DNA from: Natronobiforma cellulositropha
Lineage (GTDB): Archaea; Halobacteriota; Halobacteria; Halobacteriales; Natrialbaceae
Direction: 5' to 3'
DNA length: 47,933 nucleotides
Assembly (NCBI RefSeq): GCF_025629245.1
Contig: NZ_JANZXN010000057.1
Coordinates: forward strand, 1 to 47,933
Positions within the stretch are counted from its first letter, which is position 1; each line of letters starts with the position of its first letter. The notes beneath the pieces were generated by a model. The model was not told the DNA's origin and made no database searches. It was given only the letters and a program-made list of their open reading frames with translations. This document shows positions 14,542 to 33,548 of the stretch, one piece after another. The position numbers and the translations under genes were made by a program.

Positions 14542-14889
14542 TCAGGCCGACGCCATCTCCCGGCAGGACTCGACGCACTTCGGGAGGACTTCGGCACACT
14601 CCTGGCAGTGGGCGTGGTCGTGGTTCGCACACTCGTCTGCACACTCCTCGCAGGCGTCGGCGCAGATGGCCGCGAGGTCGTCGCTGTAGGCCGAGTTCCG
14701 GGCCATAAAGCGGGCGTGCAGCGCCGTCAGATCCGCGACGTCCCGACAGAGGCGGATACAGCGCGCCATCTCCCCGCCTTCCTCCGCGCAGGCGTCCGCA
14801 CACCACTCACAGACCTGGGCGGCCTCGAGACAGTTGTCGATACACTCCTGCATCTGGTCGTCGGCGTGTTGGAGCGATTGCAGCGCCAT
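14542..14889 (-). CDS. Cys-rich four-helix-bundle copper-binding protein (Csp/DUF326-like)
   Basis: From the ATG at 14889 (MALQSLQHADDQMQECIDNC) the protein has 115 residues with 15 Cys arranged at helical spacings: CIDNC, CEWCADAC, CIRLC, CADACEECADEC, CQECAEVLPKC, CVESC. This matches the DUF326/Csp copper-storage family, in which Cys residues line the core of a four-helix bundle and hold many Cu(I) ions. No signal is seen, so it is probably cytosolic. His residues (HDHAHC) near the third helix could be an entry site. Copper binding is a family-based inference. The upstream in-frame ATG at 14922 would add an unlikely hydrophobic leader. Confidence 0.85.
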   Translation of the reverse strand: MALQSLQHADDQMQECIDNCLEAAQVCEWCADACAEEGGEMARCIRLCRDVADLTALHARFMARNSAYSDDLAAICADACEECADECANHDHAHCQECAEVLPKCVESCREMASA

Positions 14890-14943
14890 AACAGGCCAGA
14901 CTGCGCTCACGAGCGCAATCAACCCGTGGCGTTCGTGTGCAAG

Positions 14944-15490: not shown

Positions 15491-16657
15491 TCACCGCTTC
15501 CCGACGCGCTCGAGTGTCACGGTGACGGCCGTCCCCTGCGGGTAGTTGTTCTCGATGTCGATGCGGCCGCCGATTTCCTCGAGCACCGTCGTCACGAGGT
15601 AGAGACCGACGCCCATGCCCGAGCGGCCGTCGAAGCGCCGCTCCGGATCGACGAGCAGCGCCTTCTGGCGGTCCGGAATGCCGACGCCGTCGTCGGTGAC
15701 GGTGACCGACGCGCTCGCGTCGTCCGCTTCGACCGTCACCGTGATCGTGGGGCGGTCGTTGTCGTTGTGTCTGATCGCGTTCGAGAGCAGGTGTCTGAAC
15801 ACCGAGGCGAGCATCGGCGAGCCAGCGACCGAGAGCGCTTCCCCCGCTCCACCCTCGCGTTCACACTCGAGCGTCAGGTCGACGGTGTGTTCCGCCCGGA
15901 GGCGCGCCACCTCGGTCTCGAGGAGGTCGGTGAGGTCACAGGGCTCGACGGCGACACCTGCCCCTCCGTCAGGACCGGCCGTCACCGCCGGCGTACTCGA
16001 GTCGGCGGCGATGACGTCCATCACCTCCGCGGCGGTGTCGGTCAGGTCGACGACGTGCTGGGTCGCCTCGAGCAGCGCCTCGAGTGCGGTCTCCCCGTCG
16101 GCGTCGACCTGGGTCCGTAGCTGGTCGCCCCAGCCGACGATCATGCTCACGTCGTTTCGGATGTCCTGTCTGACGATCTGGTTCAACAGCGCCAGACGGT
16201 GGTTCCGGTCGACGAGTTCGCGCTGGTTGCGCTTGCGTTCGATGGCGTAGCGGAGCGTCCGGCGGAGCAACGCCGCGGTGATGGTCCCCTTGACGAGGTA
16301 GTCCTGTGCGCCGCGCTGGATGGCTTCGACGCCGACGTCGGTGTCGTTCTGTCCGGTGAGGACGACCACTGGAACCGCTGGCGTGGAGGCGACCATCGTC
16401 TCGACCGTCTCGAGACCGCTGCTGTCGGGTAACTGGAGGTCGAGTAAGATCACGTCGGGGGCGTGCGTCCGGACGTACTCGAGGGCGTCGCCCAGCCGGT
16501 CGACGTGATCGATCGAGGTGATCTCGAGGAGACCGTCACCGCCCTCACCACCGTCGTTCGTGGCAGACTCGTGTATCAGCCGAGAGACGTACCGTGCGTC
16601 GTCCGCGTTGTCTTCGACGATCAACAGGTCGATGTCCCGTTCCCCCGCGCCGCTCAT
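15491..16657 (-). CDS. receiver-histidine kinase hybrid lacking the phospho-accepting His
   Basis: A protein of 388 residues from the ATG at 16657. Residues 8-130 are a receiver: acidic pocket VEDNADD (15-16), phospho-acceptor D73 in VILLDLQLPDSSG, T101 and K123 are all present. A short coiled linker (about 135-160) leads to a DHp-like segment LNQIVRQDIRNDVSMIVGWG. The expected RHD has Gln at 164 instead of His. The ATPase domain is complete: N box RHLLSNAIRHN (about 288-298), G1 DDGVGIPD (322-329) and G2 GMGVGLYLV (347-355). It may be a kinase-dead ATP sensor or act through a partner. It is divergent from the HxlR-receiver gene. Confidence 0.85.
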   Translation of the reverse strand: MSGAGERDIDLLIVEDNADDARYVSRLIHESATNDGGEGGDGLLEITSIDHVDRLGDALEYVRTHAPDVILLDLQLPDSSGLETVETMVASTPAVPVVVLTGQNDTDVGVEAIQRGAQDYLVKGTITAALLRRTLRYAIERKRNQRELVDRNHRLALLNQIVRQDIRNDVSMIVGWGDQLRTQVDADGETALEALLEATQHVVDLTDTAAEVMDVIAADSSTPAVTAGPDGGAGVAVEPCDLTDLLETEVARLRAEHTVDLTLECEREGGAGEALSVAGSPMLASVFRHLLSNAIRHNDNDRPTITVTVEADDASASVTVTDDGVGIPDRQKALLVDPERRFDGRSGMGVGLYLVTTVLEEIGGRIDIENNYPQGTAVTVTLERVGKR

Positions 16658-16788: not shown

Positions 16789-16806
16789 GGTGACACGGCC
16801 GTCACC
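16789..16806. promoter_or_regulatory. 6-bp inverted repeat in the divergent promoter region
   Basis: GGTGAC (16789-16794) and GTCACC (16801-16806) flank a 6-bp spacer between the divergent starts at 16657 and 16870. It lies about 30 bp upstream of a tatag element (about 16836-16841), which itself is 30 nt before the 16870 ATG. It is a candidate operator for the pair, perhaps bound by the HxlR domain encoded next to it. Confidence 0.35.
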
Positions 16807-16869
16807 TTCTCGGACCGCCACTGTCGTTGGACCCCCTATAGCTATGTCACTCCCGCAGTAACCGCGTGC

Positions 16870-17688
16870 ATGGTCACGAACGGGATCGACGTCCCATCCG
16901 ACGACCAGATGGCACTCGACGTCCTGTCGTTGCTCTCGAAGAAGTGGCATCCCGTCGTCGTGGTCGTCCTCGCCCACGAGGGTCCGCTCGGCTTCAACGA
17001 TCTTCTGGAATCGATCCCCGACATCTCCGGGAAGGTCCTCTCGGGGACGCTCGAGGCGCTCGGCGAGGCGGGCCTGATCGAACGGACGGTCGTGAGCGAG
17101 TCACCGCTTCGCGTCCGCTACGAACTCACGGAGGCGGGGTGGGACCTCGACCCGGTCTTCAGCGCCCTCACGATCTGGGGCGAACGCCACCTCGAGACGA
17201 GCACGCCGACGGTCCTCGTCGCCGACGCAGACCGGAGGATCACCGACATGTACGGGCAGTGGCTGACCGACCGCTACACCATCTCGCGTGCACACAACGG
17301 CGACGAACTCGCCGCAGCGGTCGGTGACGGCTCCGAGGTCGACGTCGTCCTCTTCGACGAGGGGCTGCCCGGCGTCGAGCCGGCCGAGACGCTCACCTCT
17401 CTCGCGAGCACCTGCCGAACGGTCGTCCTCGTCGGCGACCGCCCCGGCTTCGACCTCCTCGAGTTCGACTGTGACGACGTGCTTCGGAAACCGATCGTCC
17501 GCGAGACCGCCCTCGAGTCGGTCGAGGCACAGCTCTCCCGGCGGGGCGAACCCGACTCACAGCGCGAACACGCAGCGCTGTCGGCGAAGTGTTCGCTGCT
17601 CGAGAGTGCCTACCCCCGCGAGACGCTCGCGGCGAACGACGCCTACGTCGCCGCGTGTGAGCGCCTCGCCGCCCTCGAGGACGCGTAG
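16870..17688 (+). CDS. HxlR winged-helix regulator fused to receiver and HalX domains
   Basis: From the ATG at 16870 the protein has 272 residues. Residues about 13-108 are an HxlR-type winged helix: ALDVLSLLSKKWHPVVVVVL, FNDLLESIPDISGKVLSGTL and RVRYELTEAGWDL are the family landmarks. Residues 114-215 form a receiver with acidic residues in VLVADADRR (D119, D121), D163 in VVLFDEGLPG and K207 in LRKPI; the usual Thr/Ser switch position appears to be Gly. Residues about 229-268 resemble a shortened HalX helix pair. The DNA-binding domain is N-terminal, the reverse of most response regulators. A TATA-like element at 16836 supports this start. Its likely partners are the neighbouring kinases. 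Confidence 0.8.
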   Translation: MVTNGIDVPSDDQMALDVLSLLSKKWHPVVVVVLAHEGPLGFNDLLESIPDISGKVLSGTLEALGEAGLIERTVVSESPLRVRYELTEAGWDLDPVFSALTIWGERHLETSTPTVLVADADRRITDMYGQWLTDRYTISRAHNGDELAAAVGDGSEVDVVLFDEGLPGVEPAETLTSLASTCRTVVLVGDRPGFDLLEFDCDDVLRKPIVRETALESVEAQLSRRGEPDSQREHAALSAKCSLLESAYPRETLAANDAYVAACERLAALEDA

Positions 17689-17695: not shown

Positions 17696-19492
17696 TCACT
17701 CGAACGAACGCTGTCGGTCGGCGGGCAGCGTGACTCGGACGTCCGTGCCGACGCCCGGTGTCGACTCGATGGCGAGCGAGCCGCCGTGGTAGTCGACGAT
17801 CTTCTCACACACCGCGAGTCCGACACCCGAACCGGGAGCGGCATCCGTCCGGTCGGCACGCACGAAGAGTTCGCGGGCGCGTTCGGCTTCACCCGGCGTC
17901 ATCCCCACGCCGTCGTCGCGAACGGTGATCGTCCACTCGTCGCCGGTTCGGTCCGCGAAGACGTGAATCTCCGGCGACCCGTCGGTATACTTCAGCGCGT
18001 TCGACAGCAGGTTCTGAAACAGCCGTCGGAGCAGGTGTTCGACCCCCCACACCGTCGGAAGCGCGTCGACGGTGACCGTCGCCTCGCCCTCCTCGATGTC
18101 GAATCGCACCGTCTCGAGCACGCTCGAGACGACTCGATCACAGTCGACTGGCCCGAACTCGTCGTCGGTCGTCTCGATACGTGCGTACTCGAGGAGATCC
18201 GTGATCATGGTCTGCATCCGCGTACAGTTGCGCCGTGCCGTCTCGAGGAACTCGCGTTCGTCCGCCGTGAGCGTCGAGGCGCTCTCCTCGAGCAACGCCA
18301 GGTAGTTGTCGGTCGTCCGTAACGGCTCACGCAAGTCGTGGCTGGCGACGCTCGTGAACGCCTCCAGTTCGTCGTTCGACCGACGCAGCCGCTCGAGCGT
18401 CGCCTCGACTTCGGCTTCGAGTTCGCGCTCGACCGTCACGTCACGGACGACGATCGATCGGCCGAGCGCCTCCCCACGCCCGTCGAGAACGGGTGCAGAG
18501 ACGACGGTGACGTGACGACGGCCACCGTCGCCGTCGACGACGGTTTCTGTCTCGAGCGTGCCATCGGTCGCCGGCCGGCCGGCCAGGCTGGCTGCCATCG
18601 GTGTGAGCACCCCGAACCTGCGCCCGACCACCTCGGTCGCCTCGAGACCGATGATGGTCGCTGCACGGCCGTTCAGGTCGACGATTCGGCCGTCTCGGTC
18701 GACCACCACGACGCCGTCTTCGAGGGTATCGACGACGAACTCACGGGCGATGGGTGTCAGGTCGAGCAGACGGTACTGAGCGATTGCGACGAGGTACGCC
18801 ACGCCGATGAGCGGAAAACTGAACGGTGTGAGATCGAAGTTGACGATCGGTGAGAGTCCCGCGTGGTGGACCGTATTCGCGACCATCGAGAGCACGGCGC
18901 CGACCAGTAAGAGTCCTGCCTGGCGCTGGTACACTCGCGGTGACCAGAACAGCAGTTGAGCGAGGACGACGACCCCCGCGGTCATCAGCACGTAGCCGTA
19001 GGCGGCGTGTGCCCAGAACACGGGACCGAACACCTGTCTGAAGACGAGCAGCGACTCACTCGCGGCTTCGACGCCGAGCGACTCGCGGACGAGTCCGTGG
19101 TGCTCGTTCGTGTAGACCGCGCCGACGTAGGCCGCGGGCACCACCGCGAGTGCGGCGACCGCTCGCTTCGTCACCCAGTGACCCCGGCCGGTGAACTCGA
19201 GGGTGAAACAGAACCACGCGACGGGGACCGTCGCGACGCCGACGTGGACCAGGTTCGCCCAGAACAGCTTCGTCGACTCGTTCGCCCCCGCTAGCTGGAG
19301 ACTGTAGGCTGTCGCCCACAGGGACATCGCGAGCATCAACACCGCGAACGCGGTGCCTCCGGGCGCGTCACGGTTTCGCCACGCGTACCAGGCGATCACT
19401 CCCGTGAGCGCCGCGGCCACCAGGAGCAACGGCACAAACGGCGTGTAGTACCACTGCCAGTCGAGTATCGACACCACGGGTTTGCTGTTCAA
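17696..19492 (-). CDS. 7TM-PAS sensor histidine kinase
   Basis: A protein of 598 residues. The N-terminal region (about 15-240) has seven hydrophobic spans of the histidine-kinase N-terminal 7TM type (for example PFVPLLLVAAALTGVIAWYA and LLLVGAVLSMVANTVHHAGL). A PAS domain follows (about 247-355, FVVDTLEDGVVVVDRDGRIV), then a coiled helix and the DHp domain with H385 in TSVASHDLREPLRT. The HATPase domain has LLSNALKYTDGSPE, VRDDGVGMTPGEA and GSGVGLAVCEKIV. All catalytic motifs are intact, in contrast with the nearby His-less hybrid. It ends 7 bp from the stop of the HxlR-receiver gene (convergent). The signal sensed is unknown. Confidence 0.92.
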   Translation of the reverse strand: MNSKPVVSILDWQWYYTPFVPLLLVAAALTGVIAWYAWRNRDAPGGTAFAVLMLAMSLWATAYSLQLAGANESTKLFWANLVHVGVATVPVAWFCFTLEFTGRGHWVTKRAVAALAVVPAAYVGAVYTNEHHGLVRESLGVEAASESLLVFRQVFGPVFWAHAAYGYVLMTAGVVVLAQLLFWSPRVYQRQAGLLLVGAVLSMVANTVHHAGLSPIVNFDLTPFSFPLIGVAYLVAIAQYRLLDLTPIAREFVVDTLEDGVVVVDRDGRIVDLNGRAATIIGLEATEVVGRRFGVLTPMAASLAGRPATDGTLETETVVDGDGGRRHVTVVSAPVLDGRGEALGRSIVVRDVTVERELEAEVEATLERLRRSNDELEAFTSVASHDLREPLRTTDNYLALLEESASTLTADEREFLETARRNCTRMQTMITDLLEYARIETTDDEFGPVDCDRVVSSVLETVRFDIEEGEATVTVDALPTVWGVEHLLRRLFQNLLSNALKYTDGSPEIHVFADRTGDEWTITVRDDGVGMTPGEAERARELFVRADRTDAAPGSGVGLAVCEKIVDYHGGSLAIESTPGVGTDVRVTLPADRQRSFE

Positions 19493-19585: not shown

Positions 19586-20401
19586 TCACTCGCCCGTTCG
19601 AAACGAGCAGTCGAGCGAGGTGGCCGAGTGGGTCAGACTCCCCATCGAGATCACGTCGACGCCCGTCGCCGCGTAGGCGGGTACCGACTCGAGCGTGATG
19701 CCGCCGCTGGTCTCGGCGAGCACGTGCGGATAGGTCTCGAGCGCGGCCACCGCGTCGCTCACCGCCTCAGGTGTCATGTTGTCGAGTAAGACGACGTCCG
19801 CGCCCGCCTCGGCCGCACGCGGGGCGTCGGCGACCGACTCGACCTCGACTTCGATCTTCGTCGCGAACGAGACGCGCTCGCGAAAGCGAGCGACCGCGCC
19901 CTCGAGTCCGAGTTCGGCGACGTGGTTGTCCTTCACCATCACCATGTGCGAGAGGTCGAGGCGGTGGGTGTCGCCGCCGCCGGCGACGACGGCGCGCTTC
20001 TCGAGACCGCGCAGGCCGGGCGTGGTCTTGCGCGTCGCGGCGATGCGAACGCTCTCGCTCTCGGAGCGCGCGGCGTCGACCGCCCGGCGGGTCGCCGTCG
20101 CGACTCCCGAGGCGTGGCCGACGAGGTTGACCGCGACGCGCTCGCCACGGAGCACCTCGCGTGCGGGTCCGGAGACGGCGAGAATCTCGTCGCCGAGGTC
20201 GACGCGCTCGCCGTCGTCGAGCCGTGACTCGAGGTCGACGCCGAGGTAGCCGAAGACGGCGCTCGCGGCCTCGAGTCCGGCGACGAGACCGGATTCTTTC
20301 GCGACGAGGCGGCCGACGGTCTCGCCGGGGACCTGGTTGGTCACGTCGTGGTGGCCGACGTCCTCGCGGAGCCAGCGCTCGACGTCCGCGTCGGTGATCA
20401 T
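19586..20401 (-). CDS. nadC: nicotinate-nucleotide pyrophosphorylase (carboxylating)
   Basis: A protein of 271 residues, normal length. It converts quinolinate and PRPP to nicotinate mononucleotide, CO2 and PPi, the third step of this de novo NAD pathway. Landmarks are the N-terminal LREDVGHHDVTNQ, the central RIAATRKTTPGLRGLEKRAV, LSHMVMVKDNH, VEVESVADAP, DVVLLDNMTPEAV and the C-terminal SGGITLESVPAYAATGVDVIS. Its ATG overlaps the nadB stop in an ATGA arrangement (20398-20401), showing translational coupling. It is the last gene of nadABC. Confidence 0.96.
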   Translation of the reverse strand: MITDADVERWLREDVGHHDVTNQVPGETVGRLVAKESGLVAGLEAASAVFGYLGVDLESRLDDGERVDLGDEILAVSGPAREVLRGERVAVNLVGHASGVATATRRAVDAARSESESVRIAATRKTTPGLRGLEKRAVVAGGGDTHRLDLSHMVMVKDNHVAELGLEGAVARFRERVSFATKIEVEVESVADAPRAAEAGADVVLLDNMTPEAVSDAVAALETYPHVLAETSGGITLESVPAYAATGVDVISMGSLTHSATSLDCSFRTGE

Positions 20402-21954
20402 AGTGGATCGGCCGTCGCACCCGCCAGTTCTTCGTCGGACGCCTCGCTGACGACGTAGTGACAGCCCGCAGACTCGGGGTTCTCACTCGCCGCACGCGCG
20501 ATCAGCAGTCCCGTGATCGTCGCGTAGCGAAGTTCGTAGAGGTCGCGTGAGGTCCGCGTCCGCGTGTAGGCGTCGAGTTCGCCCTTCAGCCGCCGGAGGA
20601 CGGCCCCCGCGCGGGCGACCTCGTCGGGGTCGCGGACGAGCCCTAGATACTCGTCCATCGTCCGCTCGAGGCGAACCGCCTTCTCGGCGGCGAACCGCGC
20701 CGGGAGGGCGGGGTCGCTGTCGAGCAAGCGTGGCGCGTCGACGACCCTCGCCTCGGTCTCGCGGCTCGCGGCGTCTTCGCCCGCGCGAAGCCCCCAGACG
20801 AGACCCTCGAGCAGGCTCGTACTCGCCAGGCGGTTCGCGCCGTGGACGCCGGTCCTCGAACACTCGCCGACGGCGTAGAGGCGGTCGAGGCTCGTCCGTC
20901 CGCGGTCGTCGACCGCGATGCCGCCACAGAGGAAGTGCTCGCAGGGGGCGACCGGAATCTCCTCGCCCTCGATGCCGCGCTCGCGGCAGGTCTCGGCGAG
21001 GTCGGGGAACTCGGCTTCGAACGCGAGCGGGGAGACGTCGAGGACGACCTGTCCCGTCTCCGCCCGCTCGCGGGCGACGGCGCGTGCGACGACGTCTCGC
21101 GGGGCGAGTTCGGCGTCGGCGTGGTAATCTGGCATGAAGCGCTCGCCGTCGGCGTTACGCAACAGCGCACCCTCGCCGCGGAGCGCCTCCGAGAGCAAGA
21201 ACGGCTCCTCGTCGTCGTAGGCCGTCGGGTGGAACTGGACGTACTCGAGGTCGGCGACGTCCGCGCCGGCGAGGGCGGCCATCGCGATACCGTCGCCGGT
21301 CGCCTCGGGCGGGTTCGTCGAACGGCTGTAGAGCGCGCCGACGCCGCCGGTCGCGAGAATCGTCGTCCCCGCGTAGATGGGGTGGCCCTCGGCCGACTCG
21401 TCGGAGAGCACGCCGTGGACGCGCCCCTCGTGGGTGAGCAACTCGAGTGCGGCGGTGTCCTGTCTGATCTCGACGCCGTCGGCCGAATCGAGGTGGTGTA
21501 AGAACGGCCGGAGGATGTGCGTTCCCGTCGAGGCGTCGACGTGGAGGATGCGTGGCTCCGAGTGGGCGGCCTCCCGTGCGTAGTCGAACGCCCCGCTCTC
21601 GGTCTTCGGATCCTCGTCGAAGCCGATCTCGAGGGTGTCGACGAGGACGTCCTCGACGGCGTCGTCGGCGTGGCTGACGAGCACGTCGACGGCGGCCGGA
21701 TCGGCGGTGCCGTCGCTCGCCTCGAGAATGTCGCGTTTGAGCGCCTCGGGATCGCCGCGGGTCGTCGAGATGCCGCCTTGCGCCCAGTCGGTGCTCGCGC
21801 CGTCGGGTCTGCTCGCCTTCGTCAGGACGAGTACCTCCGCGCCGCCTCTGGCGGCTGCCAGCGCCGCACCACAGCCGGCGATGCCGCTGCCGACGACGAG
21901 TACGTCGACGGTTTCGGGTTCGCTCGCGTCGCCCGCGTCGGTCGTCGCCCCCAT
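20398..21954 (-). CDS. nadB: L-aspartate oxidase
   Basis: A protein of 518 residues from the ATG at 21954. NadB is a flavoprotein that oxidises aspartate to iminoaspartate for quinolinate synthesis. The FAD Rossmann motif VGSGIAGCGAALAAARGG is at about residues 21-38. KASRPDGASTDWAQGGI is the next cofactor segment. The fumarate-reductase-like core has HFLCGGIAVDD and the C-terminal GVHGANRLASTSLLEGLVWG. The start codon follows the nadA stop by 1 nt (nadA stop at 21956-21958), so the gene is coupled to nadA. A longer frame to 22119 is non-coding overlap with nadA and is rejected. Confidence 0.95.
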   Translation of the reverse strand: MGATTDAGDASEPETVDVLVVGSGIAGCGAALAAARGGAEVLVLTKASRPDGASTDWAQGGISTTRGDPEALKRDILEASDGTADPAAVDVLVSHADDAVEDVLVDTLEIGFDEDPKTESGAFDYAREAAHSEPRILHVDASTGTHILRPFLHHLDSADGVEIRQDTAALELLTHEGRVHGVLSDESAEGHPIYAGTTILATGGVGALYSRSTNPPEATGDGIAMAALAGADVADLEYVQFHPTAYDDEEPFLLSEALRGEGALLRNADGERFMPDYHADAELAPRDVVARAVARERAETGQVVLDVSPLAFEAEFPDLAETCRERGIEGEEIPVAPCEHFLCGGIAVDDRGRTSLDRLYAVGECSRTGVHGANRLASTSLLEGLVWGLRAGEDAASRETEARVVDAPRLLDSDPALPARFAAEKAVRLERTMDEYLGLVRDPDEVARAGAVLRRLKGELDAYTRTRTSRDLYELRYATITGLLIARAASENPESAGCHYVVSEASDEELAGATADPL

Positions 21955-21955
21955 C

Positions 21956-23089
21956 TCAGACCTCCAGCATCCGTTCGAGGGCGACGGCGGCGAGTTCCTT
22001 CTCTTCGGGGGCGACCTGGATGACGTTGTGTTCGCGCCCTTCGACGAGTTCCTCGAGGACCCAGGTGAGGTAGTTGGGGTCGATCTGGCGCATGGCGTTG
22101 CAGTCCATGCAGGCGTCACCGCAGAGCGGCAGGACGTTCACCTCGGGGTGCCAGCGCTCGAGGTGACGGGTGAGGTGGATTTCGGTGCCGATCGCCCAGG
22201 TATCGCCGGGGTCGGCCTCCTCGATCGTCCGGCAGATTTCGGCCGTGCTGCCCGCCTCGTCGGCCGCTTCGACGACCTCGCGGCGGCACTCGGGGTGGAC
22301 GATGACCTTGGCGTCGTCGTGTTCCGCGCGGACGGTCTCGATGTGTTCGACGCGGAAGCGCTCGTGGACCTGACAGTAGCCGTCCCAGAGGATGATGTCC
22401 GCCTCGGCGACCTCCTCGGCGTCTTTCCCCTCGGGGTCCCACGGGTCCCACTCGGCGAGGCTGTCTTCCATGCCGAGGCGGTAGGCGGTGTTCTCGCCGA
22501 GGTGTTTGTCGGGCAGGAACAGCACCTTGTCGCCGCGTTCGAACGCCCACTCGAAGGCGCGGTGGGCGTTCGAGGAGGTGCAGACGAGTCCGCCCTGACT
22601 CGCACAGAACGCCTTCAGATCGGCGTAGGAGTTCATGTACGTGATCGGAATGATGTTCGCGTCCGGCGCTGCCGCCGTGATCTCCGCCCACGCGGCGTCG
22701 ACCTGGAGCGCCTCCGCCATCCCCGCCATCGGACACGAGGCCTCCATGCTCGGGAGGATCACCTGCTGGTCGTCGTCGGTGATGATGTCCGCCGACTCCG
22801 CCATGAACGTCACCCCACCGAAGATGACGTAGCTCGCGTCCGTCTCTGCAGCCTGCACCGAGAGCTGGTAGGAGTCGCCGATGTAATCGGCGTGTTCGAC
22901 GATCTCCCGGCGCTGGTAGTTGTGCCCGAGAATCACGACGTCGTCGCCCAGTTCCTCGAGCGCGGTCTCGATGCGGACCGTTCGCTCGTCGGTCTCGAGG
23001 TTGTGGTACTGCGGCGGCAACTGCTCGAGGTTTCCGTACTTGAAGAGACTCAGATCAGTCTCGAGATCGGCCGTTTCCATTTTGACCAT
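21956..23089 (-). CDS. nadA: quinolinate synthase
   Basis: A protein of 377 residues. NadA condenses iminoaspartate with dihydroxyacetone phosphate to quinolinate on a [4Fe-4S] cluster. Landmarks are VILGHNYQRREIVEHADYIG (about 52-71), GVTFMAESADI, MEASCPMAGM with C119, GYCQVHERF with C239, HPECRREVV and CGDACMDCNAM with C323/C327/C330. The cluster ligands are probably C119, C239 and one of the last three. The ATG at 23089 is preferred over a Met three codons later because AGGTGA, a good match to the anti-Shine-Dalgarno, lies 5 nt upstream. It is the first gene of nadABC and has its own promoter, divergent from the sugar dehydrogenase. Confidence 0.95.
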   Translation of the reverse strand: MVKMETADLETDLSLFKYGNLEQLPPQYHNLETDERTVRIETALEELGDDVVILGHNYQRREIVEHADYIGDSYQLSVQAAETDASYVIFGGVTFMAESADIITDDDQQVILPSMEASCPMAGMAEALQVDAAWAEITAAAPDANIIPITYMNSYADLKAFCASQGGLVCTSSNAHRAFEWAFERGDKVLFLPDKHLGENTAYRLGMEDSLAEWDPWDPEGKDAEEVAEADIILWDGYCQVHERFRVEHIETVRAEHDDAKVIVHPECRREVVEAADEAGSTAEICRTIEEADPGDTWAIGTEIHLTRHLERWHPEVNVLPLCGDACMDCNAMRQIDPNYLTWVLEELVEGREHNVIQVAPEEKELAAVALERMLEV

Positions 23090-24945: not shown

Positions 24946-27159
24946 TCAGTCACGGACGTCGAACGTGACGGACTCGTCTTCACACGTGAGTTCGAACGAC
25001 CCCGGTTCGACGGTCTTTCGCCCGTCCGAGTCGGTCACACCGAGTGCCGCGTTCGGAATCTCGACTGTCGCCGTCGTCGTCTCTCCTGGCTCGAGGCTGA
25101 CCTTCGTGAAGGCGACGTGTTCTCTGACGGGGCGAACCCGTGAACTCACTTCGTCGGTCAGGAAGAAGTCGAGCGCCCAGTCTCCTGCCCGCTCGCCGGC
25201 GTTCTCGACCGTAACCGTCGCCTCGAGTGACTGCGCGGGTCCGATGATCTCCGCCGAGACCGTCAGGTCACGGCACTCGAACTCGGTGTAGCTCTCGCCG
25301 TGACCGAAGGCGAACAGCGGGTCGTAGCTGTTCGGGTGCTCGTCGTCACCGATCGGCGTCGGGTGAGCGAAGTAGTTGAACCGTTGCGGTAAGTCGCCCT
25401 CAGAGCGCGGTACGCTGATCGGGAGCTTTCCGGACGGGTTGTACTCCCCGAACAAGACGTCTGCGATCGCCTCGCCGCCCTCGCTCCCCGGATAGTACGA
25501 GAAGAGAATCGACGGGACGTTCTCTGCGGCCCACTCGACCGCGAGCGGCCGGCCACCGATGACGACCAACACGACGGGCGTTCCGGTCTCGTGGACGGTC
25601 TCGAGCAGCTCCTGTTGCGCGTCCGAGAGCGTCAACTGCGAGCGCGTCGGGAACTCGCCGGTCTCGCCGACGAGCTGTTTCGGGCCGAACTCGTGGTAGT
25701 ACCAGTTCTCACCGACGACGACGACCGCGGCGTCGGAGACCTCCGCAGCCTCTTCGACCGCCTCGAGGTCGAGTGTCTCGGTCATCGTCGCTCCCTCTTC
25801 GTAGTGGACGGTCGTCTCCTCGCCGACGGCAGCTTCGATACCGTCGAGCACCGTCGACCCCGCCCCGTCTTCGGGGTGCTGGACGCTCCAGCCACCGAAC
25901 TGGTGGCGCATGGAGTCGGCGTTCGGTCCCGTCACGAGAATCGATCCGAGGTCGGACTCGAGCGGCAGCAGGTCGTCTTCGTTCTGTAACAGCGTCTGTG
26001 ACTCGCGCGCGCTCTGGAGTGCCGCTTCACGGTGGGCCGGTGCGCCGACGACGTCGACGACTTCCTCGACGTCGACGAACGGATCCTCGAAGAGTCCGAG
26101 TCGCTCTTTCACCTCGAGAATGCGTGTCACTGCTTCGTCGACGCGTTCCTCCGAGATCTCGCCGTCTTCGACGAGCGAACGGAAGTGCTCGGCGTACTCC
26201 TCGCGACCGATCGAGACCTGGTCCAGTCCGGCGGTGATCGCCCGCTTGGCCGAGTCGCGCTGGTCGACCGTCACCCGGTGGTCCTCGTGGAGGTGGTCGA
26301 TGCCACCCCAGTCGGAGAGCACCGCTCCCTCGAAGCCGAGACGCTCGCGGAGTAACTCCGTGAGATACCGGTGTGAGCCGTGTGCTGGCTCGCCGTCGAT
26401 CGAGTTGTAACACGGCATCACGATCGAGGCTCCCGCGTCGATCGCCTCGACGAACGGCGGGAGGAAGAGCTGGTGGATCGTACTCGAGGAACGGTCGACG
26501 GCTGCCGCGTCCTCGCCCGCCTCTGGCTCGCCGTAGGCGGGGAAGTGCTTCGCCGTCGCGGCGACGGGGGGACTGTCTGCCCCCGACTCGAGACCGCGGA
26601 TCGCGGCGGCGGCGAACTGTCCACACAGCAGCGGGCTCTCGCCATAGGTCTCGAACGTCCGTCCCCAGCGCGGGTCCCTGGCGACGTCACAGGTCGGGCC
26701 GTAGTTGAGGTTCGCGCCGGTCGCTCGCATCTCGGTGGCCGTGATCTCGCCCCCGGTTTCGGCGTACGATGCGTTTCTCGTCGCCGCCATTCCGAGACCG
26801 TGGGGAAACACCGCCGCCCCGTGGACGTAGGCGTGGCCGTGGACCGCGTCGACCGGCAACAACAGCGGAATGCCGTGTCGCGTCTCCTCGAGCGCCGTCC
26901 GCTGGAGCTCGTTCGAAATTTCGGTGACCTTCTTCGCATCGTGATACTTCGAGACGCCGATTCCGAACGCCGCGATCGTTCCCACGTGCGTGTCGACGAC
27001 GAGTTCCTTTGCGTCTTCGACGCTGATGTCGTGGCCGCCCATAGAACCGATATACGCACCGACGAGTTGCCCGACTTTCTCCTCGAGCGTGAGGTCTGCA
27101 ACGAGACTCGCCACTCGAGTCTCAGAAGTCCCCTCCTCGTGACTTTTTTGCACAGTCAT
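24946..27159 (-). CDS. glycoside hydrolase family 3 beta-glycosidase
   Basis: A protein of 737 residues from the ATG at 27159. It has the N-terminal TIM-barrel GH3 domain, with VDAVHGHAYVHGAAVFPHGL (about 103-121), the KHF motif in ATAKHFPAYGEP (about 204-206) and the nucleophile D283 in GAVLSDWGGIDHLH. The second alpha/beta domain has ILVTGPNADSMRHQFGGWS and the C-terminal fibronectin-III-like domain has VTVENAGERAGDW. No signal peptide is seen, so it works inside the cell. GH3 enzymes remove beta-linked glucose, xylose or GlcNAc from chain ends; this layout fits beta-glucosidase or beta-xylosidase. It follows the ABC importer genes on the same strand but has its own TATA element. Confidence 0.9.
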   Translation of the reverse strand: MTVQKSHEEGTSETRVASLVADLTLEEKVGQLVGAYIGSMGGHDISVEDAKELVVDTHVGTIAAFGIGVSKYHDAKKVTEISNELQRTALEETRHGIPLLLPVDAVHGHAYVHGAAVFPHGLGMAATRNASYAETGGEITATEMRATGANLNYGPTCDVARDPRWGRTFETYGESPLLCGQFAAAAIRGLESGADSPPVAATAKHFPAYGEPEAGEDAAAVDRSSSTIHQLFLPPFVEAIDAGASIVMPCYNSIDGEPAHGSHRYLTELLRERLGFEGAVLSDWGGIDHLHEDHRVTVDQRDSAKRAITAGLDQVSIGREEYAEHFRSLVEDGEISEERVDEAVTRILEVKERLGLFEDPFVDVEEVVDVVGAPAHREAALQSARESQTLLQNEDDLLPLESDLGSILVTGPNADSMRHQFGGWSVQHPEDGAGSTVLDGIEAAVGEETTVHYEEGATMTETLDLEAVEEAAEVSDAAVVVVGENWYYHEFGPKQLVGETGEFPTRSQLTLSDAQQELLETVHETGTPVVLVVIGGRPLAVEWAAENVPSILFSYYPGSEGGEAIADVLFGEYNPSGKLPISVPRSEGDLPQRFNYFAHPTPIGDDEHPNSYDPLFAFGHGESYTEFECRDLTVSAEIIGPAQSLEATVTVENAGERAGDWALDFFLTDEVSSRVRPVREHVAFTKVSLEPGETTTATVEIPNAALGVTDSDGRKTVEPGSFELTCEDESVTFDVRD

Positions 27160-27180
27160 CACACACCGTTTCGCCGGAGA

Positions 27181-27190
27181 GTACTTAAAA
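27181..27190 (-). promoter_or_regulatory. TATA element of the GH3 gene
   Basis: On the minus strand TTTTAAGTAC is centred about 26 nt before the ATG at 27159. This supports that start over an ATG 28 codons upstream whose reading would cross the promoter, and indicates the gene can be expressed apart from the ABC operon. Confidence 0.5.
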
Positions 27191-27205
27191 TTGGAGACTT
27201 CCGGT

Positions 27206-27257
27206 GGGACCGTTCGATCGATCGTGAACGTCGAATCGCTCACTGGGAGCGTTCGAT
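27206..27257. promoter_or_regulatory. two 13-bp direct repeats upstream of the GH3 TATA
   Basis: GGGACCGTTCGAT (27206-27218) and GGGAGCGTTCGAT (27245-27257) differ at one base and lie 39 bp apart, just upstream of the GH3 TATA element. In addition GGACCG (27207-27212) and CGGTCC (27259-27264) are inverted relative to each other. They are candidate sites for a sugar-responsive regulator. Confidence 0.4.
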
Positions 27258-27306
27258 ACGGTCCACACTCGAAGCGGGTGAAAAACGTAAAATTCGCTGA
27301 GACCGC

Positions 27307-28407
27307 TCAGTCGGACGTCGACGGCGCCGTGGCGGATGGCTCGTCTTCGTCGACGAGTTCTGGGCTGTTCCAGTACTCGTGGTCCGGTTCTTCGCGGAAA
27401 CACGAGACGGTGTGGCCCTCCTCGACCGTGACGGGCTCGGGCGAGTTGACCCGGCAGGCCTCTCTCGCTTCCGGACAGCGCGTGTGGAAGCGACAGCCCG
27501 ACGGTGGGTTCTTCGGGTCCGGGATGTCGATCTTTCGGACCGGCGGTTCGCCGCCGTCCTCGTCGATACGGAGGTTCGGCGTCGCCCAGCGAAGCACCTT
27601 CGTGTAGGGGTGTTTCGGGTTGTTGATGACCTCTTCTGCCGGACCGATCTCGACCAGTCGGCCGAGGTACATCACGCCGATGCGTCCGCCACCGTGGCTC
27701 GCGAAGTACCGCGCGTTCGAGAGGTCGTGGGAGACCGCGACGAACGAGGTGTTGAACTGGTCTTGCAACTCGAGCATGAGGTCCATCATCTCGACGCGCA
27801 GCGAGACGTCGAGTGCGGAGATCGCCTCGTCTGCGAGGATGACGTCGGGGTCCATCAACAGCGCACGCACGAGCGCGACGCGCTGTTTCTCGCCACCCGA
27901 CAGCTGGTGTGGGTAGCGGCCCGCGTAGTCGTCCGGTGGCGACATGCCGACGCGCTCGAGCAGTGAGAGGACCTGGGCACGTCGGTCACTGGCGGTCATC
28001 TCCTTGTGCCAGCGCCGCAGCGGTGCCTCGAGAATCTTCATCACACGCCGGTTCGGGTTGAGCGAACTGCCAGGGTCCTGGTGGATGATCTGGAGCGACC
28101 GTCGAATGTCTCCGTACGGAATCTCGACGTTCCCCGTCTTGTCTTTCGCGTCCCAGATGTCCTGGCCGCGGTACTTGACGCTGCCGCCGGTCGGGCGCTG
28201 GAGACCGATCGAGGTCTTTCCGAGCGTCGTCTTTCCACAGCCCGACTCGCCGACGAGACAGACCACGTCGTTCTCTTCGATGTCGAGTGAGACGCCGTCG
28301 ACTGCCTTGACGACCTCGGGGTCCTCGAAGAAGTCGAACATGCCCTTGCTCTGCTCGAAGTGGACTTCGACGTTCTCGAGTGAGATCAGTGGTTCGTCGT
28401 TGCTCAT
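27307..28407 (-). CDS. Opp/Dpp-type ABC importer ATPase (OppF/DppF-like)
   Basis: A protein of 366 residues. It energises import through the two permeases encoded upstream. Walker A is GESGCGKTT (53-61), the Q-loop region is LQIIHQDPGSSLNPNR, the ABC signature is LSGGEKQ (169-175) and Walker B is VILADEA (189-195). The C-terminal extension holds the oligopeptide/dipeptide-type Cys pattern CRFHTRCPEAREAC (about 312-325). In this family the substrate may be peptides or oligosaccharides. The neighbouring GH3 gene favours a sugar. Its ATG overlaps the stop of the companion ATPase (28404-28407), so the two are coupled. Confidence 0.92.
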   Translation of the reverse strand: MSNDEPLISLENVEVHFEQSKGMFDFFEDPEVVKAVDGVSLDIEENDVVCLVGESGCGKTTLGKTSIGLQRPTGGSVKYRGQDIWDAKDKTGNVEIPYGDIRRSLQIIHQDPGSSLNPNRRVMKILEAPLRRWHKEMTASDRRAQVLSLLERVGMSPPDDYAGRYPHQLSGGEKQRVALVRALLMDPDVILADEAISALDVSLRVEMMDLMLELQDQFNTSFVAVSHDLSNARYFASHGGGRIGVMYLGRLVEIGPAEEVINNPKHPYTKVLRWATPNLRIDEDGGEPPVRKIDIPDPKNPPSGCRFHTRCPEAREACRVNSPEPVTVEEGHTVSCFREEPDHEYWNSPELVDEDEPSATAPSTSD

Positions 28408-29477
28408 CGTTCGCCTCCCTGGTTGTCGATGTTGAATGGTATCGCGTCGGCCGCCTGGTCCCAGTGGAAACAGCCGACCTGGTGTTCGTCAGTGAACGTC
28501 GGGCGCCAGTCGGGGTCCTCGGCGACACACTCTTCGTCGGCGAGTGGACACCGTGGGTGGTACGAACAGCCGTCCGGCACGTTCACTGGGTCGGGTGCTG
28601 CACCCTCGATCGCTTTCATCTCCGACAGCGGTGCGTCGAGGTTCGGTGTGGAGTTCAACAGCGACCGCGTGTACGGATGTGCCGCATCACGAAGGATCTC
28701 CTCGGATGGGCCGATCTCGACGAGTTCGAACGCGTACATCACGGCGAGTCTGTCCGCCAGCTCCGCGATCAGCGGCAGGTCGTGTGTGATGAAGACGATC
28801 GATAGCTCGTACTTCTCTTTGAGCGTCTCTAACAGCGAGAGGATCGACCGCTGCATCAGCAAGTCGAGTGCGGCCGTCGGCTCGTCCATGACGAGGACGT
28901 TCGGCTCGAGCACGACCGAGAGCGCGATGAGCGCCCGCTGTTGCATCCCACCGCTGAGCTCGTGTGGGAACGACTCGAGAACGCGTTCGGGCTGGAGATA
29001 GAGGTCCGCGAGCAGTTCTCGCGCTCGCTCCATTCCCTCGCCGACGTCGTAGTCGTGGGCCTTCAGCGTCTCTTCGAAGTGGCCGCCGACTTTCATCGTC
29101 GGGTTGAACGAACTCATCGCTCCCTGGAAGACCATCGAGATCTCCTCCCAGCGAAGCTTCCTGAGTTCGTCCTTGCTCACGCTGAGCACGTCGATGGCGG
29201 TCTCGCTGTCGGGCCGATAGGTGATCGTCCCCTCGAGGATGCCCGGATCGACGACGGCGTCGAGCATCGCCGAGGCGAGCATCGACTTTCCGCTGCCGCT
29301 CTCGCCGACGACGCCGAGAATCTCGTTTCGCTCGATGTCGACCGAGACGTTATCGAGAACGCGCGAGACGCCACGATCCATCTCGAAGTAGACTTCGGCG
29401 TCTCTGATCTCGACGATCGGATCCGGCGTCGTGTACGACGCGGGCTTGCTTCTCTGTGTAGATTCTTGTGAGCTCAT
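28404..29477 (-). CDS. Opp/Dpp-type ABC importer ATPase (OppD/DppD-like)
   Basis: A protein of 357 residues, the first of two non-identical ATPases that form the heterodimeric engine of the importer. Walker A is GESGSGKS (58-65), the signature is LSGGMQQRA and Walker B is VLVMDEPTAALD. The C-terminal Cys-containing extension CSYHPRCPLADEEC is typical of the oligopeptide/dipeptide subfamily. The gene starts within the last codon region of the permease gene (both share base 29477) and ends overlapping the next ATPase, so it sits in a tight operon. It is intact. Confidence 0.92.
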   Translation of the reverse strand: MSSQESTQRSKPASYTTPDPIVEIRDAEVYFEMDRGVSRVLDNVSVDIERNEILGVVGESGSGKSMLASAMLDAVVDPGILEGTITYRPDSETAIDVLSVSKDELRKLRWEEISMVFQGAMSSFNPTMKVGGHFEETLKAHDYDVGEGMERARELLADLYLQPERVLESFPHELSGGMQQRALIALSVVLEPNVLVMDEPTAALDLLMQRSILSLLETLKEKYELSIVFITHDLPLIAELADRLAVMYAFELVEIGPSEEILRDAAHPYTRSLLNSTPNLDAPLSEMKAIEGAAPDPVNVPDGCSYHPRCPLADEECVAEDPDWRPTFTDEHQVGCFHWDQAADAIPFNIDNQGGER

Positions 29478-30556
29478 TATGTGATCGTACTCGTGACCTC
29501 CTCGTCTTTGTCTTCATTTTTCGTCTTCCCCGTTCCACGCTGCCTGACGCGTGGGTTGAACAGTCGGTCGGTACCCTGCGAGCACAGGATGAGTCCGAAC
29601 GACAGCCCAACGATCGCGAACATCGGCATCAGGAGCTGATAGGTGTAATCGGGGTTGAACAGCGCGCCTTGCTGGTAGGCGAACTGCATCGCGACACCCC
29701 AGTTGTCGGCGTAGGAGCCGTGGGCGAGAATACCGAGGAAGTACAACCCGACACCGTTGAAGATCACCTGTCGTGAGGACATCACGAAGTTCACCATGAT
29801 GTACGGCATCAGGTTCGGCAGGATGTCCTTCTGGATGATTCTCGGCGTCGAGATACCCATCGTTCGGGAGGCCTCGACGTAGGAGTGTTCACGGATCGTA
29901 AGCACCTGTGCGCGGATCGTTCGCGCAAGCCCTGCCCACCAGCCGATGACGAGCAGCGGGCCGACGACCCACGGGTTTCGTGGATCGATCATGACCGCTA
30001 ACACGATGACCAGCGGCAGACCGGGAATCGTCATGACGATGTCGGAGATCGTCGTCAGGATCGAATCGGTGAGCCCACCTTTGTATCCCGACACGGTCCC
30101 GACGATGGTCGCGACGACGACGACGTAGACGCCGCCTGCGAACGTCATCTTCAACATCGCTGGCGTCGCGTGGACGATCATCCCGAAGATGTCGTGGCCG
30201 AGTCCGTCAGTGCCCAGCGGATACGCGAGACTCTGGAACGGTCCCTGGTCGTTGTACTCGAAACCGCCGAACTGATTCGCACTGGGCGTCTCGACGATTG
30301 TCACGCTCGAGAGGAACGCGAAGTTCGAACTCGAAACCCAGGCGATCAGCCCCATGAGCACGTATCCGAGGATGAGCAGGATGCCGACTTTCATTCGCCA
30401 GTCGCGCCAGGCCTCCCGCGCCGGGAGGTAGAACGCTTCGTACGCGAACTCGCGGTACTGCTGTGACGTGGTGACCTCTTCGGTCGCCTCGAACGAGAAC
30501 AACTCGCTCGTGCCACCGTCGGTCGACTTCCCTGTCTCGTCGTTAGTAGGACTCAT
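29477..30556 (-). CDS. Opp/Dpp-type ABC importer permease (OppC/DppC-like)
   Basis: A protein of 359 residues from the ATG at 30556, which overlaps the end of the preceding permease gene (stop at 30543-30545). An N-terminal hydrophilic segment (about 1-60) leads to one span (VGILLILGYVLMGLIAWVSS), a large outer loop including YPLGTDGLGHDIFGMIVHAT, then five spans. GTDGLGHDIF is the C-permease landmark. The coupling EAA loop is EASRTMGISTPRIIQKDILPN. The C-terminal cytoplasmic tail is charged. It pairs with the B-type permease to form the membrane channel of the importer. Confidence 0.9.
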   Translation of the reverse strand: MSPTNDETGKSTDGGTSELFSFEATEEVTTSQQYREFAYEAFYLPAREAWRDWRMKVGILLILGYVLMGLIAWVSSSNFAFLSSVTIVETPSANQFGGFEYNDQGPFQSLAYPLGTDGLGHDIFGMIVHATPAMLKMTFAGGVYVVVVATIVGTVSGYKGGLTDSILTTISDIVMTIPGLPLVIVLAVMIDPRNPWVVGPLLVIGWWAGLARTIRAQVLTIREHSYVEASRTMGISTPRIIQKDILPNLMPYIMVNFVMSSRQVIFNGVGLYFLGILAHGSYADNWGVAMQFAYQQGALFNPDYTYQLLMPMFAIVGLSFGLILCSQGTDRLFNPRVRQRGTGKTKNEDKDEEVTSTIT

Positions 30557-31550
30557 CTTTCCCTCCTTCACTGACTCGTGGATCGATCTTACCGTAGGTC
30601 AGGTCGGCGATCAAGACGGAGATCACGACGCTGACCGTGATGACCAGGAACGTCCCCATCATTACTGGGTAGTCCCGCCGATCTATTGAATCGAACATGT
30701 AGAATCCGATCCCACGGTACGAGAAGATTTCCTCTAAGATGATCGATGCACCGAACATGAATCCGATGATGATGAGGAAACTCGTCCACATCGGCAAGAT
30801 CGCGTTCCGTCCTACGTATCGCAGTGCGATCCGCCGGTCGGAGAGTCCGCGCAGTCGTGCGACACGGATGTAATCCTGTCCGAGTACCTGGATACTGTTC
30901 CCCCGCATCCCGAGTGCGAACCCGCCCCAGGCCGTGATGATGAACGACGCAGCGGGCAAGGTGGCGTGGTAGAGCGCACTCGCCATGAACTCGAGTGAGA
31001 ACCCGGGGGTGACATCTCGTGCATACCGTCCGCTCAGTGGGAAGACCGACCACTCCAGCGCCAGTACGTAGATCAGCGCGATCGCCGCGATGTAGTACGG
31101 GACTGAACTGAGGAAGATGGCGACGACACTGGACCCGACGTCGAAGGTCGACCCCTCCTTGTACGCCATGAGTGCCCCCAGACCGATGCCGAGGATGAAC
31201 ATTCCGAGAATGCTGATCGACATCACGAACGCCGTCCAGGGCAGTGACTGGATGATGATCTCGGCGACCGAGTCGCTGTAGAAGGTAGACTCCCCGAGGT
31301 CCCCACGAGCGAGACCAGACATGTAGCTGATGTACGCTTCGGTCAGCGTTTCGTCCGGATCGATGCTGAGCCGTTGCTCGACCATCGCGTTGATCTCGCG
31401 CCTGCTCATGGCCGGATTCTGGGTGGCGATTTCCTGGACCATCCGCTCTACCGGTCCGCCAGGCATCGCCCGTATCATCGCGAAAGTCAGGGTAGCCACT
31501 GCCCACACGGTAAACAGGGCCATTCCGATTCGCTTTATGAACCAGTTCAT
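30543..31550 (-). CDS. Opp/Dpp-type ABC importer permease (OppB/DppB-like)
   Basis: A protein of 335 residues. The N-terminal span (IKRIGMALFTVWAVATLTFAMIR) is followed by the family phrase AMPGGPVERMV, an outer helical region with GLARGDLGESTFY, and five more spans. The EAA coupling loop is VARLRGLSDRRIALRYVGRN. The C-terminal half includes IILEEIFSYRGIGF, typical of the B-type subunit. It starts 29 nt after the binding-protein stop and overlaps the C-type permease by 14 nt. The order (binding protein, B, C, D, F) is the standard one. Confidence 0.92.
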   Translation of the reverse strand: MNWFIKRIGMALFTVWAVATLTFAMIRAMPGGPVERMVQEIATQNPAMSRREINAMVEQRLSIDPDETLTEAYISYMSGLARGDLGESTFYSDSVAEIIIQSLPWTAFVMSISILGMFILGIGLGALMAYKEGSTFDVGSSVVAIFLSSVPYYIAAIALIYVLALEWSVFPLSGRYARDVTPGFSLEFMASALYHATLPAASFIITAWGGFALGMRGNSIQVLGQDYIRVARLRGLSDRRIALRYVGRNAILPMWTSFLIIIGFMFGASIILEEIFSYRGIGFYMFDSIDRRDYPVMMGTFLVITVSVVISVLIADLTYGKIDPRVSEGGKDESY

Positions 31551-31579
31551 AAAATTTTCAAGTACTAGTTAGTCGAGTG

Positions 31580-33466
31580 CTACTCTCGTGCCGCGAGCAG
31601 CCCGCGCTTGGGGAGCCAGAAGAGCGGCCACTGGACCTGCAGGTAGTGCCACTCGTCGCCGCCGCGGCTTGGGTCCGGGTAGTCCCACCGCTCGTTGTTC
31701 AGGAACGACTGCTCGTACTTGTCCTGAATCGGGAGCATCGGGAGGTCCTGGTTGATGACCCACGCGAGCTCCTTGATGATCTCCGAAGCCTCGTCCGGGT
31801 CGTTCGCACTCGCGAGGTCGGCGAGTCGCTCCTCGAAGTTGACGGTTATCTCGCCGCTGCCGTCCATCGCTGGAACGGTTGCTTCCTCCGGGTAGTTGAA
31901 GAACGAGGCTTCCGAGTCGAGCTGGCGGTTGCGCAGCTGGTGTCGGATCGAGTAGTAGGGGTGGTTGAACTGCAGGGCACCCTCGTTCCACTCGAAGCCT
32001 GCAACTTCGAAGTCGCTGTCGCCCAGGTCCGACTCGAGCGTCCCGCGCTCGACACCGTTCAACTCGACGTTGATACCGAAGTTGTTGAGCTGTGAGGCGA
32101 CGGTCTCGATTGCCGACACCCAGTCACTCCAGCCGGCGGGGTACTTGATCTCGAAGCTGAACTCGTCGCCGTCGGGGGTGAGCCACTGGTCGCCCGCGTC
32201 GGTGAGCGTGTAGCCGGAGTCTTCGAGTAAGTCGCTCGCTCGCGCACCGTCCTGAGCGTAGGACTCGTACATGTCGATGTCGTCGCCGAGGTAGTCCTCG
32301 ACGGTCGCCGACGTGATACCCGCGGGCACGGCGGGAACGGCCTTCGACTCGGGGTCCGCGTTGTTCGCTGCGAGCTCCATGTCGCTGGCGAAGCTGATCG
32401 CCTGGCGGACGTTCCGGTCGTCGAACGGCTCGACGTCGTGGTTGAAGATGAGACCGACACCGAAGGTCCCGGGGAACCGGACTTCGTCGACGGTGTCCGG
32501 GAACCGCTGGACGACCGAGCTGGGGACGAACAGGCTCAGCAGGCCGTCGAACTCGTCGCCGAGCATCGACTGCTGGTAGGCCTCGTTGCTCGAGCGCTGG
32601 TACATGTGGTAGCCGTTGAAGTTGATGTAGTCAGCGTCGGGGTGGTCGTCGAAGGCGGGTGCGGCCATGTACTCGTTGGTCGACTCGTCGTCCGAGAAGT
32701 AGAACGGACCACAGGTGACCGGCTCGCGGTCGTCCCACCCGACGAGTTCGCCCATCACGTCGTCCTCGTCCTCGCCGTCCTCCTCGATTCGCTCGAGGTA
32801 CTCGCCGTACACGTGGGCGGGCGAGTTGACGTTCTCCGTGAGAACGATCCACTCGGCGACCTCTTCGTTGACGGGTTCCTCGAGCGTGATGACCACGGTC
32901 GAGTCGCCGTCCGCTTCGACGTCAGATGCGAAGTCCCAGAGCTCTGCGTCCTGGTAGCGGCCCAGGCGCATTCCGACGGCGACGTCCTCTGCGGTGACGT
33001 CTTCGCCGTCGCTCCAGACGAGGTCGTCGCGGAACTCGAGGGTGATCTCCTCGTCGGTGATCTCCCACTCGGTCACGGCGTGTGGGATCCACTCGCCGAG
33101 CTCGAGGTTGTAGTTCGCGAACTCCTCCCAGACGGCGTTCTCCATCTGGCCGCCCTGTGCGGCGGGGTTGAACGGGTTGAACTGGACGTTCGTCGGGTCG
33201 TCCCAGTTTCCGGTCTCGAACCAGATGTCGACGTCGCCGTGGCTGTCTGCGACCTTCTCGTCGGGCTCGACCTGGCGGTCGTCCGGCGCGTCGCCGTTGC
33301 CACCGTTGCCGTTGCCACCGTTGCCGTTGCCGTTGCCACCTTCGTCGTCGTCGCCGTTTCCGCTACAGCCGGCCAGTGCGGCGGCTCCTGCGACTCCTGT
33401 TAGCGCTACGAACTTTCGTCGAGAGACTACGTCGTCGTATTTCTCATGCGATTGGCTATCAACCAT
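31580..33466 (-). CDS. ABC substrate-binding lipoprotein, family 5 (Tat-exported)
   Basis: A protein of 628 residues from the ATG at 33466. It begins with a twin-arginine signal (VSRRKFVALTGVAGAAALAGC) whose lipobox Cys anchors it outside the cell. A low-complexity Gly/Asn run (GNGNGNGGNGNGGNGD) is the tether. The large family-5 domain follows: WETGNWDDP-like FETGNWDDPTNVQFN near its start, DDLVWSDGEDVTAEDVAVGM, and a C-terminal DLPMLPIQDKYEQSFLN. These proteins capture peptides, nickel or oligosaccharides; context with GH3 favours an oligosaccharide. Earlier ATGs (33490, 33535) are rejected because a TATA box lies at 33491-33502. It is the first gene of the importer operon. Confidence 0.9.
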   Translation of the reverse strand: MVDSQSHEKYDDVVSRRKFVALTGVAGAAALAGCSGNGDDDEGGNGNGNGGNGNGGNGDAPDDRQVEPDEKVADSHGDVDIWFETGNWDDPTNVQFNPFNPAAQGGQMENAVWEEFANYNLELGEWIPHAVTEWEITDEEITLEFRDDLVWSDGEDVTAEDVAVGMRLGRYQDAELWDFASDVEADGDSTVVITLEEPVNEEVAEWIVLTENVNSPAHVYGEYLERIEEDGEDEDDVMGELVGWDDREPVTCGPFYFSDDESTNEYMAAPAFDDHPDADYINFNGYHMYQRSSNEAYQQSMLGDEFDGLLSLFVPSSVVQRFPDTVDEVRFPGTFGVGLIFNHDVEPFDDRNVRQAISFASDMELAANNADPESKAVPAVPAGITSATVEDYLGDDIDMYESYAQDGARASDLLEDSGYTLTDAGDQWLTPDGDEFSFEIKYPAGWSDWVSAIETVASQLNNFGINVELNGVERGTLESDLGDSDFEVAGFEWNEGALQFNHPYYSIRHQLRNRQLDSEASFFNYPEEATVPAMDGSGEITVNFEERLADLASANDPDEASEIIKELAWVINQDLPMLPIQDKYEQSFLNNERWDYPDPSRGGDEWHYLQVQWPLFWLPKRGLLAARE

Positions 33467-33490
33467 ACAAGTATTCTCTTCTAAGCCCAT

Positions 33491-33502
33491 GGTATATAAA
33501 TA
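33491..33502 (-). promoter_or_regulatory. TATA box of the ABC importer operon
   Basis: ggtatataaata on the plus strand reads tatttatatacc on the minus strand, about 30 nt before the ATG at 33466. It is the best TATA match in the window and implies a leaderless, strong promoter. Confidence 0.65.
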
Positions 33503-33548
33503 TTCCTTGATTCGAGAGCAACCTTCTCGAGCCACCGATCGTTCCCAA

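Follow-up and report, generated by a model that had tools for sequence, protein, structure and literature searches.

The window is a stretch of 47,933 nucleotides from the haloarchaeon Natronobiforma cellulositropha (assembly GCF_025629245.1, contig NZ_JANZXN010000057.1, positions 1-47,933 of the forward strand). A gene on its forward strand, at 16870-17688, encodes a regulator of 272 amino acids by translation. Three domains follow one another in a single reading frame: an HxlR winged helix-turn-helix (residues 21-110, positions 16930-17199; Pfam 76.1 bits, cut-off 20.8), a receiver (residues 115-216, positions 17212-17517) that scores 21.8 bits with Response_reg and thus falls under the cut-off of 30.2, and HalX helices (residues 225-271, positions 17542-17682; Pfam 26.6 bits, cut-off 23.2).

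Both neighbouring genes lie on the reverse strand. Divergent from the regulator gene, at 15491-16657, is the gene of a REC-DHp-HATPase protein of 388 amino acids, called the partner below. Convergent with the regulator gene, at 17696-19492, is the gene of a HisKA_7TM-PAS-HisKA-HATPase kinase, whose start codon is uncertain. Both assignments come from Pfam. The 7TM kinase has a complete H box (SHDLREPL) and is the only kinase of the trio with the catalytic His. A sequence-only reading of the locus had described the neighbours as a divergent His-less hybrid and a convergent full kinase, and this description holds.

Other features lie further out on the reverse strand. A Cys-rich DUF326 protein with two Pfam-matched stretches is encoded at 14542-14922. 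Three consecutive frames at 19586-23089, which by eye read like nadC, nadB and nadA of the quinolinate pathway, adjoin the kinase gene; a tblastn search found no frames of this kind near other regulator loci. At 24946-33535, again by eye, a GH3-type glycosidase-like frame is followed by an ABC peptide/sugar transporter set. When the open frames within 7 kb of the regulators were clustered, no convincing conserved target genes emerged, the clusters being chained through shadow frames.

The region upstream of the regulator gene contains a TATA-like core promoter at 16838-16846 on the forward strand, about 24-32 nt 5' of the start codon and of the leaderless type. It matches the BRE/TATA-like element CCGAACAGYTATA, read by eye, that orthologues have in common about 25-32 nt 5' of the start codon; shared motifs were sought in 23 of 29 stretches, near-duplicates being dropped. 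An operator had been proposed at 16789-16806. An inverted repeat, GGTGAC-N6-GTCACC, is present there. As a conserved operator, however, it was rejected: even the best match among 28 other divergent intergenic stretches has 3 mismatches in the 12 bases of the arms, and block-shuffling of the stretch yields one or more 6-bp repeats of this kind in 56% of the copies, although moving two-base blocks gives only a rough control. With divergent intergenic stretches limited to 700 bp in length, 19 of 29 contain a 6-bp inverted repeat, where shuffling gives 12.8 on average (sd 2.5), and none of the repeats in these 29 stretches is common to distant relatives.

The sequence of HxlR, receiver and HalX within one protein is confirmed both by Pfam and by fold. 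AlphaFold2 models the regulator with high confidence (mean pLDDT 94.6) as a winged helix followed by a complete (beta-alpha)5 receiver and, at the C-terminal end, three helices; in profile and fold searches the matches are YodB/HxlR-type proteins (e.g. YodB, 5hs7) and response-regulator receivers. Among 70 relatives scanned with Pfam, HxlR is found in all 70, Response_reg in 45 and HalX in 43. HxlR transcription factors bind DNA as dimers, and it is within the HxlR domain that most invariant columns of the regulator alignment fall (K25, W26, S53, L57, R72, V82, Y84, G90, W103); D202 is the only invariant column outside it.

Placing HxlR first had been regarded as unusual. It is not new: "HxlR-REC-HalX" was printed in a 2018 census of archaeal two-component systems, among the typical HalX architectures (Galperin et al. 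2018, PMC5847659), and the same source describes an HTH-REC order for archaeal LtrR and FilR1. A novel domain order was therefore rejected. In domain content and order the regulator of the window agrees with the haloarchaeal response regulators of that census, which, in its account of the architecture, lists the domains only and mentions neither a degenerate receiver nor a linked His-less kinase.

A canonical response regulator has two acids, the phospho-acceptor Asp, a Thr/Ser and a Lys. In the regulator of the window D119, D163 and K207 are kept, the second acid, which binds Mg, is replaced by A120, and the switch Thr/Ser by V188, so that the protein is not canonical. The sequence-only reading correctly placed the phospho-acceptor at D163 and noted the altered switch position; A120 is absent from it. 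Pseudo-receivers are defined as domains with a receiver fold that lack at least one of the five catalytic residues (PMC12632262). With its fold kept and with A120 and V188, the receiver of the regulator falls under this definition.

Conservation was followed across 81 loci, namely 80 and the window. One of them, L119, lacks HxlR and is outside the regulator counts, yet belongs to the 37 "other" loci in the comparison for the 7TM kinase. Duplicates (L037 = L080, L038 = L048, L039 = L059) are outside the counts. Of the 81 regulators 70 were aligned, and of the 75 partners 60; rows that were near-duplicates, truncated or odd were set aside. The regulator tree splits into the window clade of 44 rows (42 copies from the taxonomic family of the window, and L059 and L061 from other families) and 36 others; the sister clade has at least these 36 rows, six candidates having been scored per genome beyond the family.

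Within the window clade the second acid is non-acidic in 41 of 44 regulators and E in the other three. Thr/Ser is lost at the switch position in 39 and is T or S in 5. The phospho-Asp position is D in 40, E in 2 (L045, L082), A in 1 (L055) and S in 1 (L059), and all four members without Asp are still linked to a partner. The receiver Lys is kept in all 44. Among the 36 sampled sister rows, the second acid is D in 35 and N in 1, the phospho-Asp D in 31, the switch residue T/S in 36 and the Lys present in 32. Four further regulators (L107, L108, L116, L118) show a separate degeneration, in which the phospho-Asp has become Ala and the Lys Asp; of their partners, those at L108, L116 and L118 have lost the ATPase boxes as well, and the one at L107 is truncated. 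Because A120 and V188 replace the Mg-binding acid and the switch residue, and these losses extend to nearly the whole clade, the phosphotransfer to D163 suggested by the sequence-only reading is unlikely. The retention of D163 in 40 of 44 and of K207 in 44 of 44 is nevertheless not what a pure loss of phosphorylation predicts.

The partner shows the reverse pattern. Its own receiver is intact (E15, D16, D73, T101, K123), these five residues are among the eleven invariant columns of the 60 aligned partners, and the receiver is intact at 73 of 75 loci in both clades, the exceptions being L111 (a split frame) and L117 (an odd sequence). In the DHp domain, by contrast, Q164 replaces the catalytic His, while D165 and N168 and the N and G boxes are kept in the window copy. 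The His is lost at 38 of 41 loci of the window clade and kept in 33 of 34 sister-clade partners. The N box has its N in 32 of 41 clade partners and the G1 pattern is found in 25 of 41.

In a structural model the partner has a histidine-kinase fold; the last helix of the receiver runs on into a DHp hairpin, and Q164 lies in the first helix of this hairpin. Its best match in the PDB is LvrB (8vc9), followed by HK853 complexes, ZraS and DivL (4q20), with RetS further down. The REC-DHp-CA layout is that of a Rec-controlled histidine kinase of the LvrB type, but, lacking the catalytic His, the partner cannot act as a kinase that hands phosphate on. From these residues, the partner would appear suited to accepting phosphate rather than to donating it, and the regulator suited to binding and probably not to accepting phosphate. 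Three loci of the window clade differ: at L063, L066 and L072 the partners keep the His (GHDIQRE, GHDLQRE) and have lost the N and G1 boxes, and the regulators have the acidic pair DED. They are possibly a phosphotransfer-only (HPt-like) variant.

Evidence that the regulator and the partner belong together is provided by their distribution. A full-length regulator homologue (E<=1e-40) is found in 36 of 125 genomes of the family, in 42 copies. The partner (E<=1e-42) is present in 36 of these 36 genomes and in 6 of the 89 others (Fisher p 1.7e-25, with relatedness ignored). In four of the six partner-only genomes a diverged full-length regulator lies right beside the partner; of the other two, one is 70% complete with a match at a contig end, and the other has a partial match inside a 748-aa frame. 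Conversely, in eight genomes all 12 near-full-length partner matches, read by eye, adjoin such a regulator.

The partner is found inside the fetched stretch at 41 of 44 clade loci, in three gene orders: divergent (31), downstream on the same strand (5) and upstream on the same strand (5). At the three remaining loci the partner lies about 7 kb off (L069), 147 kb off (L058) or only beside another copy of the regulator (L064). A 7TM kinase (>400 bits) is nearby at 24 of 44 clade loci, in four orientations and always together with the partner, and at 0 of 37 others; since the profile was built from kinases at such loci, distant 7TM kinases may escape it. The H box reads SHD in all 24. Some of the fetched stretches at the 20 clade loci without a 7TM kinase are short contigs. 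As there are only 1-8 HisKA_7TM domains per genome (43 in eight genomes), proximity in half of the loci is not expected by chance.

The sequence-only reading had proposed the three genes as one signalling unit, a proposal that was to fall if they did not co-occur in other genomes. They do recur together, the pair more strictly than the trio. The linkage suggests that the partner, with its histidine-kinase fold and lost His a putative pseudo-histidine kinase, may be integrated in a two-component network. In a canonical subclade (L079, L094, L096-L101) a large multi-PAS kinase gene lies directly 3' of the regulator gene, before the REC-HATPase gene.

The second acid of the regulator and the His of the partner are kept together or lost together at 73 of 75 loci, with one exception each way (L077, L103). 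On the tree, these losses reduce to three pairs of independent changes, two of them concordant (one being the set L063, L066 and L072), and a sign test for coevolution of acid and His is not significant. When the whole receiver is compared with the whole kinase for competence, 63 of 71 loci are concordant and 8 discordant, four loci with truncated partners being left out. Coevolution as the cause of the joint loss is suggestive only.

Both proteins are under purifying selection, as judged from dN/dS values (Nei-Gojobori, seven close pairs in the clade) of 0.10-0.24 for the receiver part of the regulator and 0.14-0.21 for the partner. Among the receiver helices of the pseudo-receivers in the clade, alpha-1 varies least (mean entropy 1.23); the entropies of alpha-2 and alpha-3 are 2.44 and 2.90, the corresponding sister-clade values being 1.27 and 1.84. 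R123, W131, D202 and K207 are each present in 44 of 44 clade members. Alpha-1 is the usual kinase-docking helix of receivers, and its conservation fits a retained docking function without proving it. The sister clade also conserves R123 and W131, so the conservation of alpha-1 is not special to pseudo-receivers.

The three genes may encode a contact-based chain of signalling that arose from an ordinary two-component pair; we give this reading an even chance of being right. Its fuller form is held more tentatively, at a little under an even chance: the pair would be dead to phosphotransfer from kinase to regulator, kept by selection and rewired under the 7TM kinase, and the signal would reach the pseudo-receiver by contact only. 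The 7TM kinase would sense at the membrane and autophosphorylate, and the phosphate would pass to D73 in the intact receiver of the partner. The DHp/ATPase part of the partner could then serve as a phospho-gated binding platform, like DivL in Caulobacter. The receiver of the regulator would dock on this platform via its first helix, with R123 and W131, and docking would alter the dimerisation or the DNA binding of HxlR. The HalX helices are probably a coiled-coil dimerisation or docking tail.

Several observations count against this chain. The 7TM kinase is missing from 20 of 44 fetched stretches, the joint loss of acid and His amounts to few independent events, and the N box is lost in 9 and the G1 box in 16 of 41 partners. 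L063, L066 and L072, which keep His and acid and have lost the ATPase boxes of the partner, represent a different wiring.

Alternatively, the His-less partner may work solely as a transmitter phosphatase, draining from D163 the phosphate that reaches it from the 7TM kinase or from small molecules. The D and N positions of the DHp domain are kept (Q-D-I-R-N), with D at +1 in 36 of 41 clade partners and N or T at +4 in 34 of 41, and HisKA phosphatase activity does not require the His (PMC12632262). However, a receiver without the Mg acid in 41 of 44 members should hardly carry phosphate, and A120 alone would cripple both phosphate uptake and phosphatase chemistry. It is also argued that phosphatase activity is not a general function of His-less kinases (PMC12632262), and DivL itself has neither kinase nor phosphatase activity (PMC4211667). 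We consider this role improbable. If A120 instead mimics an activating substitution in the acid pocket, the regulator would be always on, and a phospho-signal would act on it only via transcription of its gene. One of the fold matches is indeed a PhoB double mutant, "constitutively-active D10A and D53E" (2jb9), expression control is one of the models listed for pseudo-receivers (PMC12632262), and the conserved core promoter and the divergent partner gene allow shared control. Such a regulator is an unlikely solution; it leaves unexplained why a His-less partner is kept in every regulator genome, in three gene orders, and why the pair is under purifying selection.

The retention of D163 and K207 and the fully canonical appearance of sister-clade members could also mean that the system is an ordinary one, in which the 7TM kinase still phosphorylates D163 and the REC-HATPase protein is a side branch. 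Loss of the second acid in 41 and of Thr/Ser in 39 of 44 regulators speaks against this, as do the four members that lack the Asp and are still partner-linked, and we regard it as quite unlikely. Finally, the absence of ATPase boxes in several partners might be read as decay, with both proteins on the way to pseudogenes and a linkage that is merely historical. The open frames, the low dN/dS of both proteins, the three gene orders and the invariant receiver of the partner largely refute this, and its probability is very small.

Parts of the contact-based chain can be found in known systems. LvrB is the prototype of the Rec-controlled histidine kinases and becomes active when its N-terminal receiver is phosphorylated (PMC13269768). 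The partner likewise has the REC-DHp-CA layout, but LvrB has a His (H161) and transfers phosphate to a downstream protein (PMC13269768), whereas the partner has Q164. DivL of Caulobacter has, like the partner, a histidine-kinase fold that has lost the catalytic His; within its two-component network it acts as a platform that binds a phosphorylated receiver made elsewhere (PMC4211667). In the partner, by contrast, pseudokinase and phosphorylatable receiver form one protein, and the receiver proposed to dock is the dead one. We propose that the chain would be a hybrid of the LvrB and DivL logics.

The regulator shares with the pseudo-receiver regulators reviewed by Bourret et al. (2025, PMC12632262) a receiver fold that lacks one or more catalytic residues. 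Those covered in the review are bacterial and mostly orphans, whereas the regulator of the window has a conserved gene partner. A search of the open-licence PMC literature found no report of a pseudo-receiver regulator paired with a His-less REC-HATPase protein. The same review calls the on/off switching of pseudo-receivers a mystery, and its authors were aware of no published functional study of an archaeal one (PMC12632262). At this locus, conservation makes it possible to name an upstream partner for a pseudo-receiver, and a sister clade in which both proteins seem catalytically complete provides a natural before-and-after pair.
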